In this document: piece after piece, positions 11,397 through 33,541 of the stretch | Numbering within the stretch: position 1 is the first letter of the stretch | Layout: each line of letters starts with the position of its first letter | Assembly: GCA_021323915.1 (NCBI GenBank) | Contig: JAJPKB010000635.1 | Location: 1 to 34,576 of the forward strand | Length of the DNA: 34,576 bases | Origin: Chloroflexota bacterium | GTDB lineage: Bacteria > Chloroflexota > UBA6077 > FW602-bin22 > CADDYW01 | Reading direction: 5' to 3' | The notes under the pieces: model-generated | Told to the model about the DNA's origin: nothing | Seen by the model: only the letters and a program-made list of their open reading frames with translations | The model's database searches: none | Position numbers and translations under genes: made by a program

Positions 11397-13355
11397 TTAC
11401 GGAGTGCCGACCGCCGAGGGCACGGCGATGCGCACGTACTGGCGGCGGCGGCCACGAACGACCATACCGGGCGAGACGGCGATCGTCGCCCGGGGATCGG
11501 AGACCTTCTCCCCGTCGATCGACACGCTGCCCTGTTCGACCAGTCGTCTCGCGTCGCTCTTGCTCGACGCCAGGCCCAGCGCGACCAGCAGATCGGCGAT
11601 CGACCAGTCGCCGGCTCGGGGAAGCGCGACCTCCGGAACCTCGGCGGGCACCTCGTGACGCTGAACCTCCCGGGCGAAGCGCTCCGCCGCCACGCGCGCC
11701 AGCTCGGGCGAATGGAACTGGCTGACGACGTCGAACGCCAGCCGCTTCTTCAGATCCATCGGGTTCACCGTGCCGAGGGCGATCCGCTCAACCATCACGC
11801 GAAGCTCGCTCTCCGGCACGTCGGTCAGCAGCTCGAAGTAGCGCACGATCAGATCGTCTTTGAGCGACATCACTTTGCCGTACATCTCGTACGGCGGCTC
11901 AGCGATGCCGATCACGTTGTGGTAGCTCTTGCTCATTTTACGCCCGTCGGTTCCTTCGAGCAGCGGCACGGTGATGACGAACTTTTCCCGGTTCTGCAGC
12001 ACCCGAACGAGGGTACGACCGACGAGCATGTTGAAGGTCTGATCGGTCCCGCCGATCTCGGCGTCGACCTCGAGCGCGACGCTGTCGTAGCCCTGGAGGA
12101 GCGGATACAGGAACTCGTGCAGGCCGATCGGCTTGTTCTCTTCGAGCCGACGCTGGAACATGTCGCGCTGGAGCATCTGCTGGGCGGTGAAGTTGGCGGC
12201 CAGCTCGATCATGTCGCGGGTGGTCATCTTGTCCCACCACTCGCCGTTGTAGCGGATTTCCACCGGATTTGTCGGCGACTTGACGTCGAGAATGCGCGAT
12301 GCCTGCTCGATGTAGCTAGCGGCGTTTTCGAGCACCTCGGCGTGGGTGAGCTGAACGCGCATGGCGCTCTTGTCGGTGGGGTCGCCGATGCGGCCGGTGA
12401 AGTCGCCGATCAGAAAGACAATCTTGTTTCCCAGGTCCTGGAGCTGGCGGAGCTTCCGCAGGGCGACGGCGTGGCCCAGGTGGATGACCGGGCTGGTCGG
12501 ATCGACGCCCAGGTAGATGCGGATCGGCTGGCTGGCTCGCAGGCGGCGCTCCAGCTCCTCGCGCCCGACGATCTCGACGATGCCCCGTTCGAGGACGCGC
12601 TCGACAGGATCGGGCCCGCTGCGGACCGGCACCGGCAGGTCGACGACCGGATTATTCTTATCGACGAATGCCGTCCAGACCTTCGCGCCGAGGAGGGATT
12701 CGAGCGCGCGAGAAAGCTCGGCCGCCGCCTGGCGCACCGCGTCGTCGGTGAGGCCGACGAATCCGTCGATCGGGAAAAAGACGCCGCGGCTGGCGCCAGT
12801 CACTTTACCGCGCTCGCCCAGGCGCCAGACCCAGCGCCGGGTGCGCACGGCCTGCTCGTCGGCAAAGACGATCTCACCCGGCGGCACCGGCTCGCTCTCC
12901 GACTGCCCGAGGGGCGTGAAGCGATCGCCCTCCCGACTCTCCCGCACCCAGAAATCACCGCTCAGTCGATCGAGGTCGTGAGCGCCGACCGGCACCAGGA
13001 ATCCCAGACTCGCGGCGTTGGCGAGATCGACGGCCGGATTGATCCGGGGCGCTCCTTCGCCTTCGATCGCCCGCCGGGCAAGGGCCGCGATCGAGGGAGG
13101 GAACTCGACCGGGTTGATTCCGGCCCGACGAAACGCGTCGAGCCATGCCTTGATCCGCGGATTCGCGTCGAGCGGCTGGCCGTCGACCGTCTGGCGAAGC
13201 GCGCTGGCGGCGCGAGCGAGGAGTTCCTCGGCCTCCGGCGCCGGCCCGGCGTTGTCGAGGCCGGTGGCGACGACCACGCCCACGCAGTAACTCGGGAAGG
13301 ACGCGAGCACCTCGGGCGCGATTCCAAAGCGCATTGGCCTGCTGGCATCAGCCAT
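11397..13355 (-). CDS. tyrS: B3/B4 tRNA-editing-like domain fused to tyrosyl-tRNA synthetase
   Basis: N-terminal ~240 aa resemble B3/B4 domains (FPSYCVGVVVATGLDN, INPAVDLANAASLGFLVPVGAHDLDRLSGD, GEIVFADEQAVRTRRWVWR). C-terminal TyrRS: YLGVDPTSPVIHLGHAVALRKLRQLQDLG, GTDGRKMSKSYHN, C-terminal S4 domain. Confidence 0.93.
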   Translation of the reverse strand: MADASRPMRFGIAPEVLASFPSYCVGVVVATGLDNAGPAPEAEELLARAASALRQTVDGQPLDANPRIKAWLDAFRRAGINPVEFPPSIAALARRAIEGEGAPRINPAVDLANAASLGFLVPVGAHDLDRLSGDFWVRESREGDRFTPLGQSESEPVPPGEIVFADEQAVRTRRWVWRLGERGKVTGASRGVFFPIDGFVGLTDDAVRQAAAELSRALESLLGAKVWTAFVDKNNPVVDLPVPVRSGPDPVERVLERGIVEIVGREELERRLRASQPIRIYLGVDPTSPVIHLGHAVALRKLRQLQDLGNKIVFLIGDFTGRIGDPTDKSAMRVQLTHAEVLENAASYIEQASRILDVKSPTNPVEIRYNGEWWDKMTTRDMIELAANFTAQQMLQRDMFQRRLEENKPIGLHEFLYPLLQGYDSVALEVDAEIGGTDQTFNMLVGRTLVRVLQNREKFVITVPLLEGTDGRKMSKSYHNVIGIAEPPYEMYGKVMSLKDDLIVRYFELLTDVPESELRVMVERIALGTVNPMDLKKRLAFDVVSQFHSPELARVAAERFAREVQRHEVPAEVPEVALPRAGDWSIADLLVALGLASSKSDARRLVEQGSVSIDGEKVSDPRATIAVSPGMVVRGRRRQYVRIAVPSAVGTP

Positions 13356-13388: not shown

Positions 13389-13670
13389 CGAAAAAACCTC
13401 TCGCCCACACGGGCGAGAGGCTCGATAGCCTTCGCGGTACCACCGCGTTTTGTCGGCCACGGAACGCGGCCAACCTCGAAGCGCGGTAACGGGCGCGAAC
13501 CGGCGCACGCCTACTAGCTTGACGACCTCACCGTGGAGCGAAGTGGCACGATCGAGCGTTCGGGCGGCGACTCCGGAGGGTAATCACGACGTCGTTCACC
13601 GCGGGTCTCACACCAGCCGCCCGCTCTCTGAAGAGAACCTCGACGCCGCGCGTGTCTCCATCATCGTCTT
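13389..13670 (-). ncRNA. T-box leader upstream of tyrS (probable specifier UAC, Tyr)
   Basis: Minus strand contains GATGATGGAGACACG, AGAGAGCGGGCGGCTGGTGTGAGACCCGC (stem I features), GATTACCCTCCGGAGT (specifier region), T-box bulge CGCGGTGGTACCGCG, then terminator, then tyrS. Confidence 0.88.
13391..13420 (-). terminator. Intrinsic terminator of the tyrS T-box leader
   Basis: On minus strand: CCTCTCGCCC-GTGT-GGGCGAGAGG followed by TTTTTT; 10-bp perfect stem. Confidence 0.85.
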
Positions 13671-13833
13671 TCACGCATATTGTAGCACGCGGAGACGCGA
13701 CGACGGGAACCCGGGCAAGGCCCCGACCACGGTCAGCGCCGGGCCGAACGGAAACGGGCGACACTCCGACGAGGCACGGTCGCGGAGCGGGCTCTCGCGC
13801 GGCGTTCCCAGGCGAGCATTTATAATGGAGGAA

Positions 13834-24419: not shown

Positions 24420-27400
24420 TCAGGTCGAGTAGTACTTCGCCTCGGGGTGGTGCGCGACCAGCGCCGCGGTCGACTGCTCCGGCATGAACTGCCAGCCGTC
24501 GGTGAGGCGCATGCCGGCCTGCTCGATGCGCAGGAGGCGTGCGAGCTTCTCGTGCTCGCTCAGCTCCGGACACGCCGGATAGCCCCAGGAGTAGCGGCGC
24601 CCCTGCTCCGCCGGAATACCAAGCTCCTGACGCACCCGCGCGTGGACGTACTCCGCGAGCGCCTCGGCGCACTGGGTCGCGAAGCCGTGGAGGTAGTAGC
24701 TCTCGGTGTACTTGCCCTGGCGGTTCAGCTCGTCGCACAGCTCGTCGGCGCAGCGACCGACCGTTACCGCCTGGAGCGGCAGAACGTCGACGCGGCCCGA
24801 GCCAACCTCCGCGAAATAGTCGGCGAGACAAAGCCGCTCGTTCGCCGGTTGGCGCGGGAAGCTGAACCGCTCGAGCACGCGCGCCGCGTCGGATCCCGCG
24901 CCGGTGCGCAGCCGGGCCAGCCCCTCGCCATCGTTCGGATCGTAGACGAGAACGTCGTTACCATCCGCCTGGGCCGGGAAGTATCCGTAGACCGCTTCGG
25001 GCTGGATGTCGCCGCGGTCGCGCGCCGCGCGCTTCAGCTCTTCGAGGCGTGGATAGTACTCTTCTTCGAGTAGCTTTTCCCAGGCGCTGCCTTCGCGGTT
25101 CTTCGCTCCCCAGTGCAGGCGGAAAAGCGTCTTGAGGTCCAGGTGCTTGAACACGTCGTCGAGCGGAATCGGCGCGCGGGCCTCCGCCGCGGTCGCTCCC
25201 CGGCGCGCCCGCGCGCGGATCGATCCACCCAGCAGACGGACGCCCCAGAACGGGGGCGTCGGAATCGGCACCGCGCGGCTCACCTTGGAGCGCGCCACGA
25301 GCCGCGCGGCCGGATCCACCACCGAGCGGTCCGGACGGTTCTTTCCGAGATCGATCCTGGCTTTTTCGCTGAGCCGGGCGCGGAGCTCGCCTCGTCGGTC
25401 CGGGTCGGTGAGCTTGTCCACCGTCTCCAAACCCTCGAAGGCATCCTTACAATAGAAGACGCCGGGCTCGTACTCGGTGCCCTCGTCGACGTAGAGCGCC
25501 CGATAACCAAATCCGCGGTTGATCGCCGCGCCGCCGATCAGGACCGGATAGTTCAGCCCGCGCCGGTGCAGCTCCTGAACGCAGAGCGGCATCTGCTTCG
25601 AGGTGGTGACGAGCAGCGCGGACAGGCCAATCGCCGTCGCCTGGACCTCCTGGGCCTTGTCGATAATCGTGTTCAACGGCACCTGCTTGCCGAGATCGTA
25701 GACGGTGTAGCCGTTGTTGCTCAGAATCGTGCAGACCAGGTTCTTGCCGATGTCGTGAACGTCTCCGAAAACCGTCGCGACGACTACCTTCCCTTTGGTG
25801 TAGCCCTCTTTCTTCTCCAGGAACTGCTCCAGGTGGGCGACCGATCGCTTCATCACCTCGGCCGACTGGAGCACGAACGGCAGGATCAGCTCGCCCGCCC
25901 CGAAGCGGTCTCCGACGTCCTTCATCGCCGGCAGCAAGATCTCGTTGAGGACCTCGACCGGCGAGTGTCGGGTCAGTGCCTCGTCGATCAGCGCTTCGAT
26001 GTTGTCTTTTTTACGATGGAGGATCTGCTGGTGAATCCGCTGCTCGGCCGGCAGATCGGCAAAGGGATCTCCGGCTTGCCCCCGGTCGGCCTGATCGGGC
26101 TGCTTGGCTTCGAAGTAGTTGATGTACCGGGCAAGCGCGTCCGGTCGTCGGTTGTAGATCAGATCCTCGGCCAGCCCGCGCTCCTCGGCGGGAATATCGG
26201 CGTAAGGCGTGACGTGATTGGGATTGACGATCGCCAGGTCGAGCCCGTGCTTGACGGCGTGATAGAGAAACACGCTGTTCAGCACCGCTCTGGCCTGCTG
26301 ACCAACGCCGAACGACACGTTCGACACGCCCAGGATCGTCAGAACGCCCGGTAAGCGCTCCTTGATCAGCCGAATCCCCTCGAGGGTCTGGATGCCGGAG
26401 TCGACGAGATCCTCCTGGCCGGTCACCAGGGGGAAGGTCTGCACGTCGAAAATCAGCGAATCAGGGGCGAGGCCGTACTCGTCGCGGGCGATGTCGTGGA
26501 TCCGGCGGGCGATCTCGTACTTCCGCTCGGCGGTCTTGGCCATGCCCTGCTCGTCGATCGTCATCGCCACGACGCAGGCGCCGTGCTCGACGGCGAGCGG
26601 CAGGATCGTATCCACGCGCTCGGCGCGGTTCTCAAGGTTGATGGAATTGAGGATGGCGCGGCCGGGATACTGCTTCAGCGCCGTCTCCATCACCTTCCAC
26701 TCGGTGGAGTCGATCACCAGCGGCGCTTCGACGCCCATCGCCAGCTTCTTCACCAGCGCGCGCATCTGGTCGGCCTCGTCGGTCCGCTCGGTCATGGCCA
26801 CACAGACGTCGAGGGCGTGTGCGCCGCCCTCGACCTGGTCGCGCGCGACCTGGAGCACGCCGTCGTAGTCGTCCTTGATCAGCATGCGCTTGACCGCCCG
26901 GGACCCCACCGAGTTCACCCGCTCGCCAACCAGCATCGGCGCGGGCTCCTGGCGAAGCGGAATGGCACGCATGCCACTCGACACCATCGGCGCCGAGGCG
27001 ACCTCGCGGCGCCGGGGCTTCCGACCGCCGATCCGCTCGACGACCCGGGCCAGGTGGGCCGGGGTGGTGCCGCAGCAGCCGCCGACGACCGACACCCCCA
27101 GGTCGACGACGAACTCGTAAAGCGCATCCGCGAGCTCAGCCGGCTGCAGAGGGTAGCACTCGCCGGTCGGCGTGTTGAGAGGCAGGCCCGCGTTGGGGAT
27201 GACCGAGATCGGCAGGCGGCTCCGCTCGCAGAGGTAGCGGACCGGCTCGCGCATGTGCTCCGGACCGGTCGAGCAGTTGAGGCCGATGATCTGAATCGGA
27301 AGCGCCTGCAGCGTCGCCAGCACCGCGCCGATGTCCGTCCCGAGGAGCATGCGTCCGGTCAGGTCCAGCGTCACCTGGGCCTGGATCGGCACCCGGCGCC

Positions 27401-27962
27401 CGGTACGCTTGAACGTCCGCACGATTCCAGCGATCGCCGCCCTGGTCTCGAGGATATCCTGCTGGGTCTCGATCAGCAGCAGGTCGACGCCGGCTTCGAT
27501 CAGCGCCCGCGCCTGCTCGCCGTAGACGTTCGCCAGCTCATCGAACGTGACGTTGCCGAGGGTCGGATCGTCGGATGACGGCAGCATACCCGTCGGTCCG
27601 AGCGAGCCGGCCACGAAGATCGGGTGCGTTGGGGTCGCGAAGGCGGCGGCGGCTCGGCGTGCGATCTCGACCGCGGCGCGATTGATCTCGTCGTGGCGGT
27701 CTTGCAGCCCGTACTCGGCGAGCTTGAGCCGGCTCGCTTGAAACGTGTTCGTTTCCAGCACGTCCACGCCCACCGTGCAGAAACCGGCGTGAATCCGCTC
27801 GATCACGTCGGGGCGGGTGACGCTCAGGAAGTCGTTACAACCGACCTTGCCGCCAAAGTCCTCCGCGCCCAGGTTGAAGGTCTGGATCGACGACCCCATC
27901 GCGCCGTCGAAGATGACGACGCGCTCGGCCAGGACGTCCAAGAAGCTCGGGTGCTTTTCCAT
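24420..27962 (-). CDS. metH: Cobalamin-dependent methionine synthase
   Basis: About 1180 aa: Hcy-binding (FDGAMGSSIQ, GGCCGTTPAH), pterin-binding (GERVNSVGSRAVK), B12-binding (VFGDVHDIGKNLV), reactivation domain (YSWGYPACPELSEHEKL). Start placed at MEKHPSFL. Confidence 0.96.
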   Translation of the reverse strand: MEKHPSFLDVLAERVVIFDGAMGSSIQTFNLGAEDFGGKVGCNDFLSVTRPDVIERIHAGFCTVGVDVLETNTFQASRLKLAEYGLQDRHDEINRAAVEIARRAAAAFATPTHPIFVAGSLGPTGMLPSSDDPTLGNVTFDELANVYGEQARALIEAGVDLLLIETQQDILETRAAIAGIVRTFKRTGRRVPIQAQVTLDLTGRMLLGTDIGAVLATLQALPIQIIGLNCSTGPEHMREPVRYLCERSRLPISVIPNAGLPLNTPTGECYPLQPAELADALYEFVVDLGVSVVGGCCGTTPAHLARVVERIGGRKPRRREVASAPMVSSGMRAIPLRQEPAPMLVGERVNSVGSRAVKRMLIKDDYDGVLQVARDQVEGGAHALDVCVAMTERTDEADQMRALVKKLAMGVEAPLVIDSTEWKVMETALKQYPGRAILNSINLENRAERVDTILPLAVEHGACVVAMTIDEQGMAKTAERKYEIARRIHDIARDEYGLAPDSLIFDVQTFPLVTGQEDLVDSGIQTLEGIRLIKERLPGVLTILGVSNVSFGVGQQARAVLNSVFLYHAVKHGLDLAIVNPNHVTPYADIPAEERGLAEDLIYNRRPDALARYINYFEAKQPDQADRGQAGDPFADLPAEQRIHQQILHRKKDNIEALIDEALTRHSPVEVLNEILLPAMKDVGDRFGAGELILPFVLQSAEVMKRSVAHLEQFLEKKEGYTKGKVVVATVFGDVHDIGKNLVCTILSNNGYTVYDLGKQVPLNTIIDKAQEVQATAIGLSALLVTTSKQMPLCVQELHRRGLNYPVLIGGAAINRGFGYRALYVDEGTEYEPGVFYCKDAFEGLETVDKLTDPDRRGELRARLSEKARIDLGKNRPDRSVVDPAARLVARSKVSRAVPIPTPPFWGVRLLGGSIRARARRGATAAEARAPIPLDDVFKHLDLKTLFRLHWGAKNREGSAWEKLLEEEYYPRLEELKRAARDRGDIQPEAVYGYFPAQADGNDVLVYDPNDGEGLARLRTGAGSDAARVLERFSFPRQPANERLCLADYFAEVGSGRVDVLPLQAVTVGRCADELCDELNRQGKYTESYYLHGFATQCAEALAEYVHARVRQELGIPAEQGRRYSWGYPACPELSEHEKLARLLRIEQAGMRLTDGWQFMPEQSTAALVAHHPEAKYYST

Positions 27963-28005: not shown

Positions 28006-28034
28006 TTGACAACCGGACGACGGCATGGTAGAGT
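28006..28034 (+). promoter_or_regulatory. Sigma70-like promoter for the thrC leader: TTGACA-N17-TAGAGT with TGG extended -10
   Basis: Direct reading; about 25 nt upstream of the SAM-I riboswitch P1 stem. Confidence 0.7.
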
Positions 28035-28057
28035 ACGGCAACAATCGAATAGCACGC

Positions 28058-28171
28058 GCTCTTATCCAGAGTGGCGGAGGGAAACGGCCCGACGAAGCCC
28101 GGCAACCGGTGGCGCTTCGAGCAGCACACGGTGCCAACTCCGGCAGAGCAATTCTGCGAGATAAGGGGAGC
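28058..28171 (+). ncRNA. SAM-I (S-box) riboswitch
   Basis: CTCTTATCCAGAGTGGCGGAGGGAAACGGCCCGACGAAGCCCGGCAACC...GGTGCCAACTCCGGCAGAG...GCGAGATAAGGGGAG matches the S-box core and P1 closure. Confidence 0.95.
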
Positions 28172-28181
28172 GGTAAAGCAG

Positions 28182-28209
28182 ACGCCCCTGCCATCGCGGG
28201 GGCGATTTT
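28182..28209 (+). terminator. Candidate riboswitch-controlled terminator after the SAM-I aptamer
   Basis: CGCCCC...GGGGCG hairpin followed by ATTTTGTT; U-run is short. Confidence 0.5.
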
Positions 28210-28254
28210 GTTATCGCGAGCTGGAAAAAGAGAGAGCGGCGCACAATTACATAA

Positions 28255-28560
28255 TGTACCGGCTGAGACGAGGACGAGTATGCGAGGATACCAGCCACAG
28301 AGAGCCGCGCGAGCTGAGATGCGGCGCCTGGCGTCCCGCTGAAAATGACCTCCGAGCCGCCGACCCAACGACTTCGGTCCAGTAGGATCGGCCGGGTTGC
28401 CCAACCGGGCAGACCAGCGCCCGTTATTGCCGCTGGGGTATCGGGTTCGCGTGCGCGCTGAGCCCCGTACCCGCCAAGGCTGTCGTCGCGAGGCGGCAGT
28501 AAATGAGGGTGGTACCACGAGAAAAAGCCTCTCGTCCCTGTCCAGGGCGAGAGCTTTTTT
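28255..28560 (+). ncRNA. T-box leader upstream of thrC (probable specifier ACC, Thr)
   Basis: GAGGACGAGTATGCGAGG, AGAGAGCCG, CTGAAAATGACCTCCGAGC (specifier region), T-box TGAGGGTGGTACCACG, terminator CTCTCGTCCCTGTCCAGGGCGAGAGCTTTTTT. Confidence 0.9.
28529..28560 (+). terminator. Intrinsic terminator of the thrC T-box
   Basis: CTCTCG(T)CCCTG-TC-CAGGGCGAGAG then CTTTTTT. Confidence 0.87.
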
Positions 28561-28573
28561 ATCGGAGGATATC

Positions 28574-29815
28574 GTGTCACGCATCCGTGGTTTGAAGTGT
28601 CGAGAGTGCGGCCGCCTCTACCCCGTCGAAGCGATCCACGTCTGTGAGGACTGCTTCGGCCCCCTCGAAGTCGATTACGACTACGAGCTTATCCGGACCC
28701 GAATTTCCCGCGAATCGATCGCCGCCGGCCCGCGCGGCCTCTGGCGCTACCGAGACCTGCTTCCGATCGAGGGCGAGCGCGTCGTGGACATCGGCGCCGG
28801 CCTCACCCCCCTCGTGCGGGCGGATAACCTGGCCCGGGAGCTCGGCCTGCGCGAGCTCTACATTAAGAACGATAGCGTCAACCCGTCGTACTCGTTCAAA
28901 GATCGACCGGTGTCGGTCGCAAGCTCGAAGGCGATCCAGTTCGGCTTCGACACCCTCGCCTGCGCGTCGACCGGCAACCTGGCCTGCTCGGTCGCCGCCC
29001 ACGCCGCCCGGGCCGGGCTGCGGGCCTGCGTCTTCATCCCCGCCGATCTGGAGCAGGGGAAGATCCTGGGTGCCGCCATTTACGAGCCGACCTTCTTCGC
29101 CGTCGACGGAAACTACGACGACGTCAATCGCCTCTGCTCCGAGGTCGTCGACCAGTACAACTGGGCCTTCGTCAACATCAATCTCCGCCCGTACTATTCG
29201 GAGGGCAGCAAGACCCTGGCGTTCGAGGTTGCCGAGCAGCTGGGGTGGCGCGCCCCCGATCACGTCGTCGCGCCGATCGCCTCCGGCTCGCTGTTCACCA
29301 AGCTCTGGAAGGGCTTCAACGAGCTCCGCAAGGTCGGCTTGATCGATTCGCTCGACGTCCGCATGAGCGCGGCCCAGCCACTGGGCTGCTCGCCGGTCTA
29401 CACCGCGTTCGTCGACGGGACTGAGACCGTCCGACCGGTCCGCCCCAACACGATCGCCAAGTCGTTGGCGATCGGCAATCCAGCGGACGGCTACTACTGC
29501 CTGAAGATTGTCGCCGAATCGCGGGGAAGCTGCGAGGCCGCGAGCGACCCCGAGATCGTGGAGGGCATCAAGCTCCTCGCCCGGACCGAGGGCATCTTCA
29601 CCGAAACCGCCGGGGGGGTGACGATCGCGTGCTTGAAGAAGCTGGTCGCGGCGGGTAAGATCGACCCGGACGAGGTGACCGTCGCCTACATCACCGGTAA
29701 CGGCCTGAAGACCCAGGAAGCGATCGCCGATCACGTCGTCCAACCGGTGCGCATCGCGCCGACGATCGAATCGTTCCAGGCGGCGTTGCGCGAGCGAGAG
29801 CCCGCGCTGGCTTGA
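28574..29815 (+). CDS. thrC: Threonine synthase (zinc-ribbon-containing, PLP-dependent)
   Basis: LKCRECGRLYPVEAIHVCEDCFGPLEV ribbon; NDSVNPSYSFKDRPVSVA PLP-Lys region; GNLACSVAAHAARAGL. Start GTG after GGAGG. Confidence 0.93.
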   Translation: MSRIRGLKCRECGRLYPVEAIHVCEDCFGPLEVDYDYELIRTRISRESIAAGPRGLWRYRDLLPIEGERVVDIGAGLTPLVRADNLARELGLRELYIKNDSVNPSYSFKDRPVSVASSKAIQFGFDTLACASTGNLACSVAAHAARAGLRACVFIPADLEQGKILGAAIYEPTFFAVDGNYDDVNRLCSEVVDQYNWAFVNINLRPYYSEGSKTLAFEVAEQLGWRAPDHVVAPIASGSLFTKLWKGFNELRKVGLIDSLDVRMSAAQPLGCSPVYTAFVDGTETVRPVRPNTIAKSLAIGNPADGYYCLKIVAESRGSCEAASDPEIVEGIKLLARTEGIFTETAGGVTIACLKKLVAAGKIDPDEVTVAYITGNGLKTQEAIADHVVQPVRIAPTIESFQAALREREPALA

Positions 29816-29868: not shown

Positions 29869-30144
29869 ATGGCAGTCACCGTGAAAATTCCGGCGCCCCT
29901 GCGCCGGCTCACCGACGGACAGCGCGAGGTGTCGACCGATGCCGCCACCGTTGGCGAGTGTATCGAGCGTCTGGGACAGGCGTTCCCCGGGCTGAAGGAT
30001 CGCATCTGCGAGGAGGATGGATCCGTCCGCCGCTTCGTGAACATCTACGTGCGGGGCGAGGATATCCGCTTCAGCAGTGGTCTGGCCACCGCTCTGCGCG
30101 ATGGCGACGACGTGTCGATCGTGCCCGCCGCCTCCGGCGGGTAG
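29869..30144 (+). CDS. MoaD/ThiS-family ubiquitin-like sulfur carrier protein with C-terminal GG
   Basis: 91 aa beta-grasp pattern, RFVNIYVRGEDIRFSSGLATALRDGDDVSIVPAASGG. Confidence 0.9.
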   Translation: MAVTVKIPAPLRRLTDGQREVSTDAATVGECIERLGQAFPGLKDRICEEDGSVRRFVNIYVRGEDIRFSSGLATALRDGDDVSIVPAASGG

Positions 30145-31675: not shown

Positions 31676-31729
31676 GCCAGGGCCCGGGCGTGGCTCAGGC
31701 CGCGCCACCAGTGAGAGAGGGGTGTGTCC

Positions 31730-33541
31730 ATGAGCACCACGACCGAGCGCCCAAAGCCACAGGTTGACGAGATCGAAAAGTCGATCGACAGTTTCATGGG
31801 ACGACTCGCGCGTTCCTGGAAGAAGCTGCTGATCCTGGCGATCGTCCTCGCCATCATCTGGTTCGGCATCGCGCCGAACATCGGCGGCTGGCTGCAGTAT
31901 ATCGCCTACGGCTTCTTCATGCTCTTCCAGCTGCTCTTCGCCGTCCTCTTCATGGTGGTCCAGTTCGGAGCGCTCTTCTGGTTCCTGGCTCGCGGTCGTA
32001 CGTACTGGGTCAAGCCGGGTGAGACCGGAGTTGGTTTCCAAGACTACCGTGGGAATCCCGAGGTCCTCGAAGTTGCCACGCGCGTGGTGACGCTGCTCAA
32101 GGGAGTCAAAGAGTTCAAGCAGATGGGCGGCGAGGTTACCCGCGGCATCCTGCTGGTCGGCCCTCCCGGCACTGGCAAGTCCTACCTCGCTCAGTGCATC
32201 TCGACCGAGGCCGGCGTTCCCTTCGGTTACGCCTCGGCGCCAAGCTTCCAGAACATGTTCATGGGCATCAGCAACCTGACGGTTATGATGCTTTACCGTA
32301 AGGCCCGGAAGCTGGCCTTGAAGCATGGCGCGTGCATCCTGTTCATCGACGAGATCGATGCCATCGGTCAGTCGCGCATGGCCAACGGCATGGGCGGCAT
32401 GGGTGGCGCGATGGGCGGCTTGTTTGGCGGTGGCGGCAGCGGCCTGCTCAACGAGCTTCTTCTCCAGATGGACCCGCCCCCACACGAAGACGGCTGGTGG
32501 GCCAAGTTCAAGCGAAACATCGGTCTCCGCAAGAAGAAGGTCGAGCGCCCGCTCGTCCTGACGATGGGCGCGACCAACATCGCCGAGACCCTCGATCCGG
32601 CCCTCCTACGACCGGGCCGATTCGACCGAAAGATCTTCGTCGACGCCCCCGACTTCGATGGTCGCAAAGAGATCATCAAGTATTACCTGGACAAGGTCGC
32701 CCACGAAGACATGGATCTGGATCGCCTGTCGTCGGAGACGATCGGCCAGACCCCGGCCGCCCTGAAGTTCATCATCAACGAGGCGGTGATCAACGCCCAC
32801 TTCAACGGGCGCGTCAAGATCGGCTACCAGGACTTCACCGTCGCTCTGGACAACCACGAGGTCGGTCTGCGGCACCCGATTCGCAACATGCTCGAGGAAG
32901 AGCGGCGTGCCCTTGCCTATCACGAGGCCGGCCACGCGGTCGCGATGCTCAAGCTCTACCGGCGCGAGCGGGTCACCCGGGTCACCATCATCCGCCACGA
33001 GGGCGGCATCATGGGTTTCGCGATGACCAAGCCGGTCCAGGAGACCTACACGACCGATCGCGCCGAGATCCTCTCGCGCATCCAGGTCGCCCTCGCGGCG
33101 CGTGCCTCCGAAGAATTGTTCCTTGGCACCCAGCTCAGCGGCGTGTTCGCCGACCTGCAGCAGGCGACCCGGGCAGCGGCCGCCTACATCGGTTACCTTG
33201 GCATGAACGGCAGCCTCTACTCAACGGCCGCCTTTGGCGAAGGCGTCGACACAGGGATGCGGCGCGAGATCGACAAGCTACTTCACGACCAGTTCCTGAA
33301 GGTGAAGAATCTCCTGAACATGAACCGCGATCTGGTCGTGGCGATCGCCGAGACTCTCCTCCAGCGGCTCGAGTTGAGCGGCGACGACGTCGTTCGCATC
33401 GCCGAGGAGGTCGAGCGCCGCAAGCTGCGCGGCGAAGTGCTGCCACAAGAACCGGAGCTCGACGGGCCGGTCAGCGTGCTCGATCTGCTTCCGACGGACT
33501 CGGCCATCGCGGCCGCCTACACCGAGCCGCGCAAGGATTAG
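31730..33541 (+). CDS. Divergent FtsH-like membrane AAA+ ATPase / M41 metalloprotease
   Basis: TM segments, GPPGTGKSYLAQ Walker A, ILFIDEIDAI Walker B, LLRPGRFDRKIFVDAPD SRH, YHEAGHAVAML zinc motif, FADLQQAT third-ligand motif. Confidence 0.92.
   Translation: MSTTTERPKPQVDEIEKSIDSFMGRLARSWKKLLILAIVLAIIWFGIAPNIGGWLQYIAYGFFMLFQLLFAVLFMVVQFGALFWFLARGRTYWVKPGETGVGFQDYRGNPEVLEVATRVVTLLKGVKEFKQMGGEVTRGILLVGPPGTGKSYLAQCISTEAGVPFGYASAPSFQNMFMGISNLTVMMLYRKARKLALKHGACILFIDEIDAIGQSRMANGMGGMGGAMGGLFGGGGSGLLNELLLQMDPPPHEDGWWAKFKRNIGLRKKKVERPLVLTMGATNIAETLDPALLRPGRFDRKIFVDAPDFDGRKEIIKYYLDKVAHEDMDLDRLSSETIGQTPAALKFIINEAVINAHFNGRVKIGYQDFTVALDNHEVGLRHPIRNMLEEERRALAYHEAGHAVAMLKLYRRERVTRVTIIRHEGGIMGFAMTKPVQETYTTDRAEILSRIQVALAARASEELFLGTQLSGVFADLQQATRAAAAYIGYLGMNGSLYSTAAFGEGVDTGMRREIDKLLHDQFLKVKNLLNMNRDLVVAIAETLLQRLELSGDDVVRIAEEVERRKLRGEVLPQEPELDGPVSVLDLLPTDSAIAAAYTEPRKD

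Follow-up and report, generated by a model that had tools for sequence, protein, structure and literature searches.

Leaders in which a SAM-I riboswitch is followed by a T-box for tRNA-Met were described by Sherlock et al. (2022) as NOT A AND B gates before metX and metY, and seven are counted in their Table 2 (PMC9481103). A T-box together with an antisense S-box is indicated for the ubiG operon of Clostridium acetobutylicum by the entry for a 2008 paper listed in PMC7270179. In Xanthomonas, the SAM-I riboswitch also binds initiator tRNA and acts mainly on translation (PMC7270179).

On the enzyme side, MetM has been presented as a Streptomyces homocysteine synthase using O-phosphohomoserine; in the account of Hasebe et al. 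(2024, Appl Environ Microbiol 90:e01247-24) given in PMC12172450, metO is adjacent, a SAM riboswitch lies upstream, and homologues occur in cyanobacteria. Kim et al. (2025) measured, in vitro, threonine synthase activity on O-phosphohomoserine and threonine deaminase activity of the Microcystis counterpart; these authors doubt a full MetM role for the protein in vivo (PMC12172450). A review gives the homocysteine step of Synechocystis as unknown (PMC7133116).

Here we analyze a leader of an uncultured Chloroflexota bacterium. The window, by which we mean the whole stretch of 34,576 nucleotides under study, comprises positions 1-34,576 of the forward strand of contig JAJPKB010000635.1 (GCA_021323915.1), and the genome it belongs to (G000) is an incomplete, partly contaminated assembly (94% / 8.8%).

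Results

An earlier note on this DNA, made from the letters alone, had proposed an S-box aptamer at 28058-28171 with a candidate terminator behind it. Both were recovered. RF00162 matched 28059-28167 (+) with 77 bits against a gathering score of 44.4 (cmscan), with the four-way junction of a SAM-I aptamer, and a pattern scan of the leader strand returned two strong intrinsic terminators, with stems at 28183-28204 and 28529-28553 (terminator-like sites: 4 observed vs 0.7 expected from shuffles). The first, extending with its U tail to 28212, belongs to the S-box expression platform; the second reaches 28560 with its U tail and overlaps the 3' arm of the T-box antiterminator. Folding predicted a mutually exclusive terminator and antiterminator for the S-box: AGGGG (28164-28168) may pair with CCCCU and would then compete with P1, the structure with P1 and the first terminator coming to -71.2 kcal/mol and the antiterminator alternative to -60.5, about 11 less stable. 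Family knowledge suggests that SAM would switch expression off at this aptamer. The only other S-box of the genome (contig C543:26146-26266 (-), locus L001/L063) precedes mtnA-like, sugar-kinase-like, ahcY-like and metK-like genes, identities that were read from sequence alone.

Directly downstream, RF00230 matched over its full length at 28256-28542 (+) with 76.4 bits and an E-value of 9.9e-17 (cmscan, E-value mode). The covariance check that the earlier note had proposed was thus passed in length and E-value and missed at the gathering score of 93, which is a curator's cut-off and not a structural criterion. The thrS (69.5 bits) and tyrS (67.1 bits) T-boxes of the same genome also fall under that cut-off, so the low score alone is no warning sign. 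Stem I with a specifier bulge, a UGGN T-box sequence and a terminator are all present. The tyrS element is a second T-box of the window (13406-13673 (-), UAC specifier, Tyr) and precedes the tyrosyl-tRNA synthetase gene at 11397-13355 (-). A B3/4 domain (PF03483, 81.9 bits) is fused to the N terminus of the encoded synthetase; we know of no such fusion in standard TyrRS.

A single sigma-70-like promoter (TTGACA-17-TAGAGT) was found on the stretch by pattern scan, at 28006-28034 (+), 5' of both RNA elements. The gene behind the leader starts with GTG at 28574, with no gene in between, as the idea of one common leader had it, and a promoter between the elements, which that idea would not have survived, was not seen in a consensus sigma-70-type scan of the window leader. 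The two RNA matches, the two terminators and a promoter found only upstream together show that the serial SAM-I/T-box leader exists.

The order of elements was also kept in relatives, including diverged species, which answers the demand for conservation made when the tandem was first noted. In G001, G002 and G003, the metM-like gene is preceded by promoter, S-box, terminator, T-box and terminator; G012 and G030 have both elements before it with their terminators and no promoter of the scanned type, the S-box of G030 being weak (37.9 bits). Family f30 shows the identical plan, with an AUG specifier, before metX-metY (G138, G048, G073) and an aspartokinase-like gene. It could be argued that the S-box and the T-box sit on separate transcripts or that one of them is a relic, since promoters of other types lie outside the reach of a consensus-based scan. 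We regard this as highly unlikely, given the conserved order in diverged species and the nine tandem leaders, all of which keep a terminator after each element and none of which showed a promoter-like site between the two in the consensus scan.

The two elements also occur singly. At least 32 Chloroflexota genomes have an S-box directly 5' of the metM-like gene; the S-box alone is kept in other Chloroflexota, and the T-box alone in G006. In family f33 (G058, G097, G132), the 500-700 nt interval between S-box and gene held a terminator and linker and no T-box sequence; these leaders (L090, L091, L092) have repeat-like stretches with no recognisable RNA element between the S-box terminator and metM. 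No RNA element above threshold was found 5' of the cyanobacterial counterparts at 12 loci. In G030, a further T-box, probably for Leu (GAA-CUC), is located just downstream of the metM-metO pair (L079 3205-3631).

Which tRNA the T-box reads was judged from a specifier register calibrated on T-boxes of the same genome that precede known genes: valS (GAAG-GUC-G), thrS (GAAA-ACC-A), trpE (GAA-UGG-A) and tyrS (GAU-UAC-C). In this register the window element reads GAAA-AUG-A, placing AUG (Met) at 28345-28347 (+) in the context GAA-A-AUG-A-[CCUC], where the CCUC after AUG-A pairs with GAGG of Stem I. The earlier note had described a complete T-box for tRNA-Thr with the specifier ACC. The T-box itself stood; its threonine specificity did not. 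ACC does occur at 28348-28350, with its CC lying within the adjoining helix, and it is not conserved: AUG is invariant in 11/11 Met T-box leaders (window and relatives), the following base is A, G or C, and in G030 and G042 the bases after AUG are AUCC. ACC is missing while AUG is kept in G002, G138, G048, G073, G030 and G042.

The T-box sequence AGGGUGGUACCACG (28506-28519 (+)) points the same way. Its UGGU (28510-28513) is complementary to a tRNA 3' end ACCA, with A73, and UGGU is found in all 11 Met leaders, against UGGA in both thrS T-boxes. ARAGORN gave U73 in all three tRNA-Thr of the window's genome and A73 in its tRNA-Met. G006 provides a natural control, in that a thrS T-box for Thr (ACC, UGGA) and the T-box for Met that belongs to the metM-like gene (AUG, UGGU) stand there back to back. 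With AUG in register, UGGU set against U73 and the specifiers of the relatives, tRNA-Thr was rejected as the ligand; by specifier and N73 complementarity, the window T-box is predicted to be specific for tRNA-Met, elongator or initiator.

The gene under this leader (28574-29815 (+)) encodes a 413 aa PLP enzyme of fold II, annotated in the thrC class. Its product passed TIGR00260 (thrC) with 307 bits against a cut-off of 167 and fell just short on NF006050 (296 vs 303), where the genome's other ThrC (contig C60) scores 605; comparison with solved structures returned ordinary threonine synthases only. In a maximum-likelihood tree of 43 proteins, which did not include the Streptomyces albulus MetM itself, the window protein and its Chloroflexota, cyanobacterial and Nonomuraea relatives were set apart by a branch with support 100/99, and ordinary ThrC, including the genome's own, fell outside this clade. 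The active-site motif differs accordingly: NPSYSFKDRP in the window, NP[TS][YF]SFKDR[PV] in Chloroflexota, TLSFKDRV in cyanobacteria and NPTHSFKDRV in Nonomuraea, against NPTGSFKDRG in ordinary ThrC. The actinobacterial Nonomuraea relative (52.6%) has SAM-I, metM-like gene and carrier gene in succession, an arrangement also ascribed to S. albulus metM-metO where PMC12172450 cites Hasebe 2024.

A putative metO-like gene follows at 29869-30144 (+), encoding a ThiS/MoaD-type sulfur carrier of 91 aa with a C-terminal GG (PF02597, 58.7 bits), so that a ThrC-like PLP enzyme stands beside a ThiS/MoaD-like carrier, the context of MetM. Across Chloroflexota and cyanobacteria, such a gene lies after the metM-like gene in 114/120 loci, several of the six misses being contig ends; 97 of the 114 carriers end exactly in GG, and nearly all the others have GG near the end. 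The gene adjoining the leader on the other side is the divergent metH (24420-27962 (-); TIGR02082, 1087 bits), a cobalamin-dependent methionine synthase, an enzyme that uses homocysteine. In G006, a homoserine-kinase-like GHMP kinase is part of the metM-like gene's operon. Close relatives G001 and G002 have a gene for a small NIL-domain protein between the metM-like and metO-like genes (L218 4334-4573; L219 4568-4807; PF09383 tested for L218 only), which is absent from the window. NIL domains are known from methionine transport ATPases, and the protein may therefore be a methionine-related accessory. Further downstream in the window lies an FtsH-like AAA+M41 protease (31724-33541 (+)), which with 301 bits against the FtsH model's cut-off of 600 is probably a divergent member.

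With the SAM and tRNA-Met switches upstream and the sulfur-carrier neighbour together, the window "thrC" is, in line with published MetM/MetO, a candidate homocysteine synthase of MetM type that has a MetO-type carrier, rather than an enzyme of threonine synthesis. The threonine synthase target named in the earlier note was given up on account of the carrier neighbour and the clade separate from the genome's ordinary ThrC. Control of a genuine threonine synthase by a SAM-I riboswitch and a T-box for tRNA-Thr, with O-phosphohomoserine as the point where methionine and threonine are balanced, would account for the ACC, for the passing of TIGR00260 and for the threonine synthase activity of the Microcystis counterpart in vitro (PMC12172450). 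This explanation is extremely improbable, being opposed by the AUG in register and the pairing of UGGU with A73, by the loss of ACC where AUG stays, by the carrier, by the same tandem on metX-metY, and by at least one further ThrC homologue in 36/36 tested genomes carrying the metM-like gene.

The distribution of homocysteine genes was surveyed in 151 genomes: 12 had a metM-like gene together with MetX/MetA, 51 a metM-like gene only, 53 MetX/MetA only, and 35 neither. MetM-like and MetX/MetA thus tend to exclude each other (Fisher p 4e-7, by genome, ignoring relatedness); for MetX alone the values are 3e-5 by genome and 0.058 by family. Chloroflexota without a metM-like gene often carry metX. 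MetX and MetA had no match in the window's own genome, as far as an incomplete assembly shows. thrB was found in it, from which the organism should be able to make O-phosphohomoserine, and one full-length PF01053 enzyme might offer an alternative route to homocysteine.

Discussion

Starting from the aptamer classes, two terminators, specifier register, N73 match, conserved gene pair and separate clade, all read from sequence, we consider it very probable that the leader acts as a transcription attenuator for methionine with two inputs in series, placed before a homocysteine-making metM-metO pair. The ligand responses, termination, gate logic and enzyme activity in this organism are those that family knowledge and conservation lead us to expect. 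Transcription would start near 28040. At high SAM, P1 of the S-box would be retained, the first terminator would form and the polymerase would stop near 28212; at low SAM it would continue and the T-box would be made. Uncharged tRNA-Met would then pair its CAU anticodon with AUG and its ACCA end with UGGU, stabilizing the antiterminator and allowing transcription of metM-metO, and charged tRNA-Met would leave the second terminator to form. Such a leader would act as a NOT A AND B gate, permitting expression only where low SAM coincides with uncharged tRNA-Met. The proposed products would make homocysteine from O-phosphohomoserine, with sulfur delivered via the MetO-like carrier, and feed the divergent metH.

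Of the two-input leader originally suggested, the tandem of both elements behind one promoter was upheld, and the tRNA-Thr input and threonine synthase target were replaced. The opposition of methionine and threonine at the homoserine-phosphate branch point goes with them, as the T-box reads tRNA-Met and the gene is a MetM-type candidate: both inputs would read one product line, methionine and SAM, and the leader would not set the two amino acids against each other.

A different reading accepts the tRNA-Met T-box and supposes that the enzyme is mainly a threonine synthase/deaminase tied to methionine need, for example for 2-oxobutyrate. The in vitro activities of the Microcystis protein are in its favor (PMC12172450), and nothing else speaks as strongly against a pure MetM role. 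However, a gene switched on at low methionine and SAM would then deepen the shortage of O-phosphohomoserine for methionine, and both the carrier neighbour and the exclusion with metX/metA would be left unexplained. We therefore judge this reading unlikely and retain homocysteine synthesis as the proposed function.

The "threonine synthase" label that databases give to this family in Chloroflexota and cyanobacteria should be corrected, as those members that have a riboswitch in this analysis all come under methionine control. From the side of regulation, the leaders independently support the MetM-MetO route, described only recently, and they are relevant both to the contested function of the cyanobacterial protein (PMC12172450) and to the Synechocystis homocysteine step (PMC7133116). 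With them, the known targets of a rare RNA logic gate with two inputs come to be of two kinds. A broader proposal is that, through transfer or convergence, one SAM-I/T-box-Met gate has come to serve two unrelated homocysteine operons (metX-metY in one Chloroflexota family, metM-metO in others), and that many Chloroflexota and cyanobacteria make their homocysteine mainly through metM-metO, which would also be the missing step of Synechocystis; the chances for and against this seem to us evenly divided.

No report of a SAM-I/T-box-Met combination on metM-metO was found in the literature searched, most subscription journals lying outside it; leader class and enzyme class are each already known. 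CysM-CysO of Mycobacterium tuberculosis shares with the window pair a PLP enzyme of fold II that takes its sulfur from a ThiS/MoaD-like carrier, and differs in product (cysteine) and substrate (O-phosphoserine). The ubiG operon likewise has one S-box and one T-box on one sulfur operon; there the S-box reportedly gives rise to an antisense RNA, with a T-box said to be for Cys, whereas the window elements stand in series on the sense leader. The Xanthomonas SAM-I riboswitch resembles our leader in tuning a met operon to both SAM and uncharged Met tRNA, but does so with one aptamer and platform and with no T-box or specifier (PMC7270179). With Streptomyces MetM-MetO, as far as it is described in PMC12172450, the window shares a ThrC-like PLP enzyme whose gene has a SAM riboswitch upstream and a sulfur-carrier gene beside it; it differs in adding a Met T-box between riboswitch and gene, in belonging to the Chloroflexota and in being a candidate from its sequence. 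Closest is the gate of Sherlock et al. (PMC9481103), with the same two elements in the same order on a methionine-pathway target; its metXY form also occurs here in family f30, but the target in the window is metM-metO and not metX-metY.
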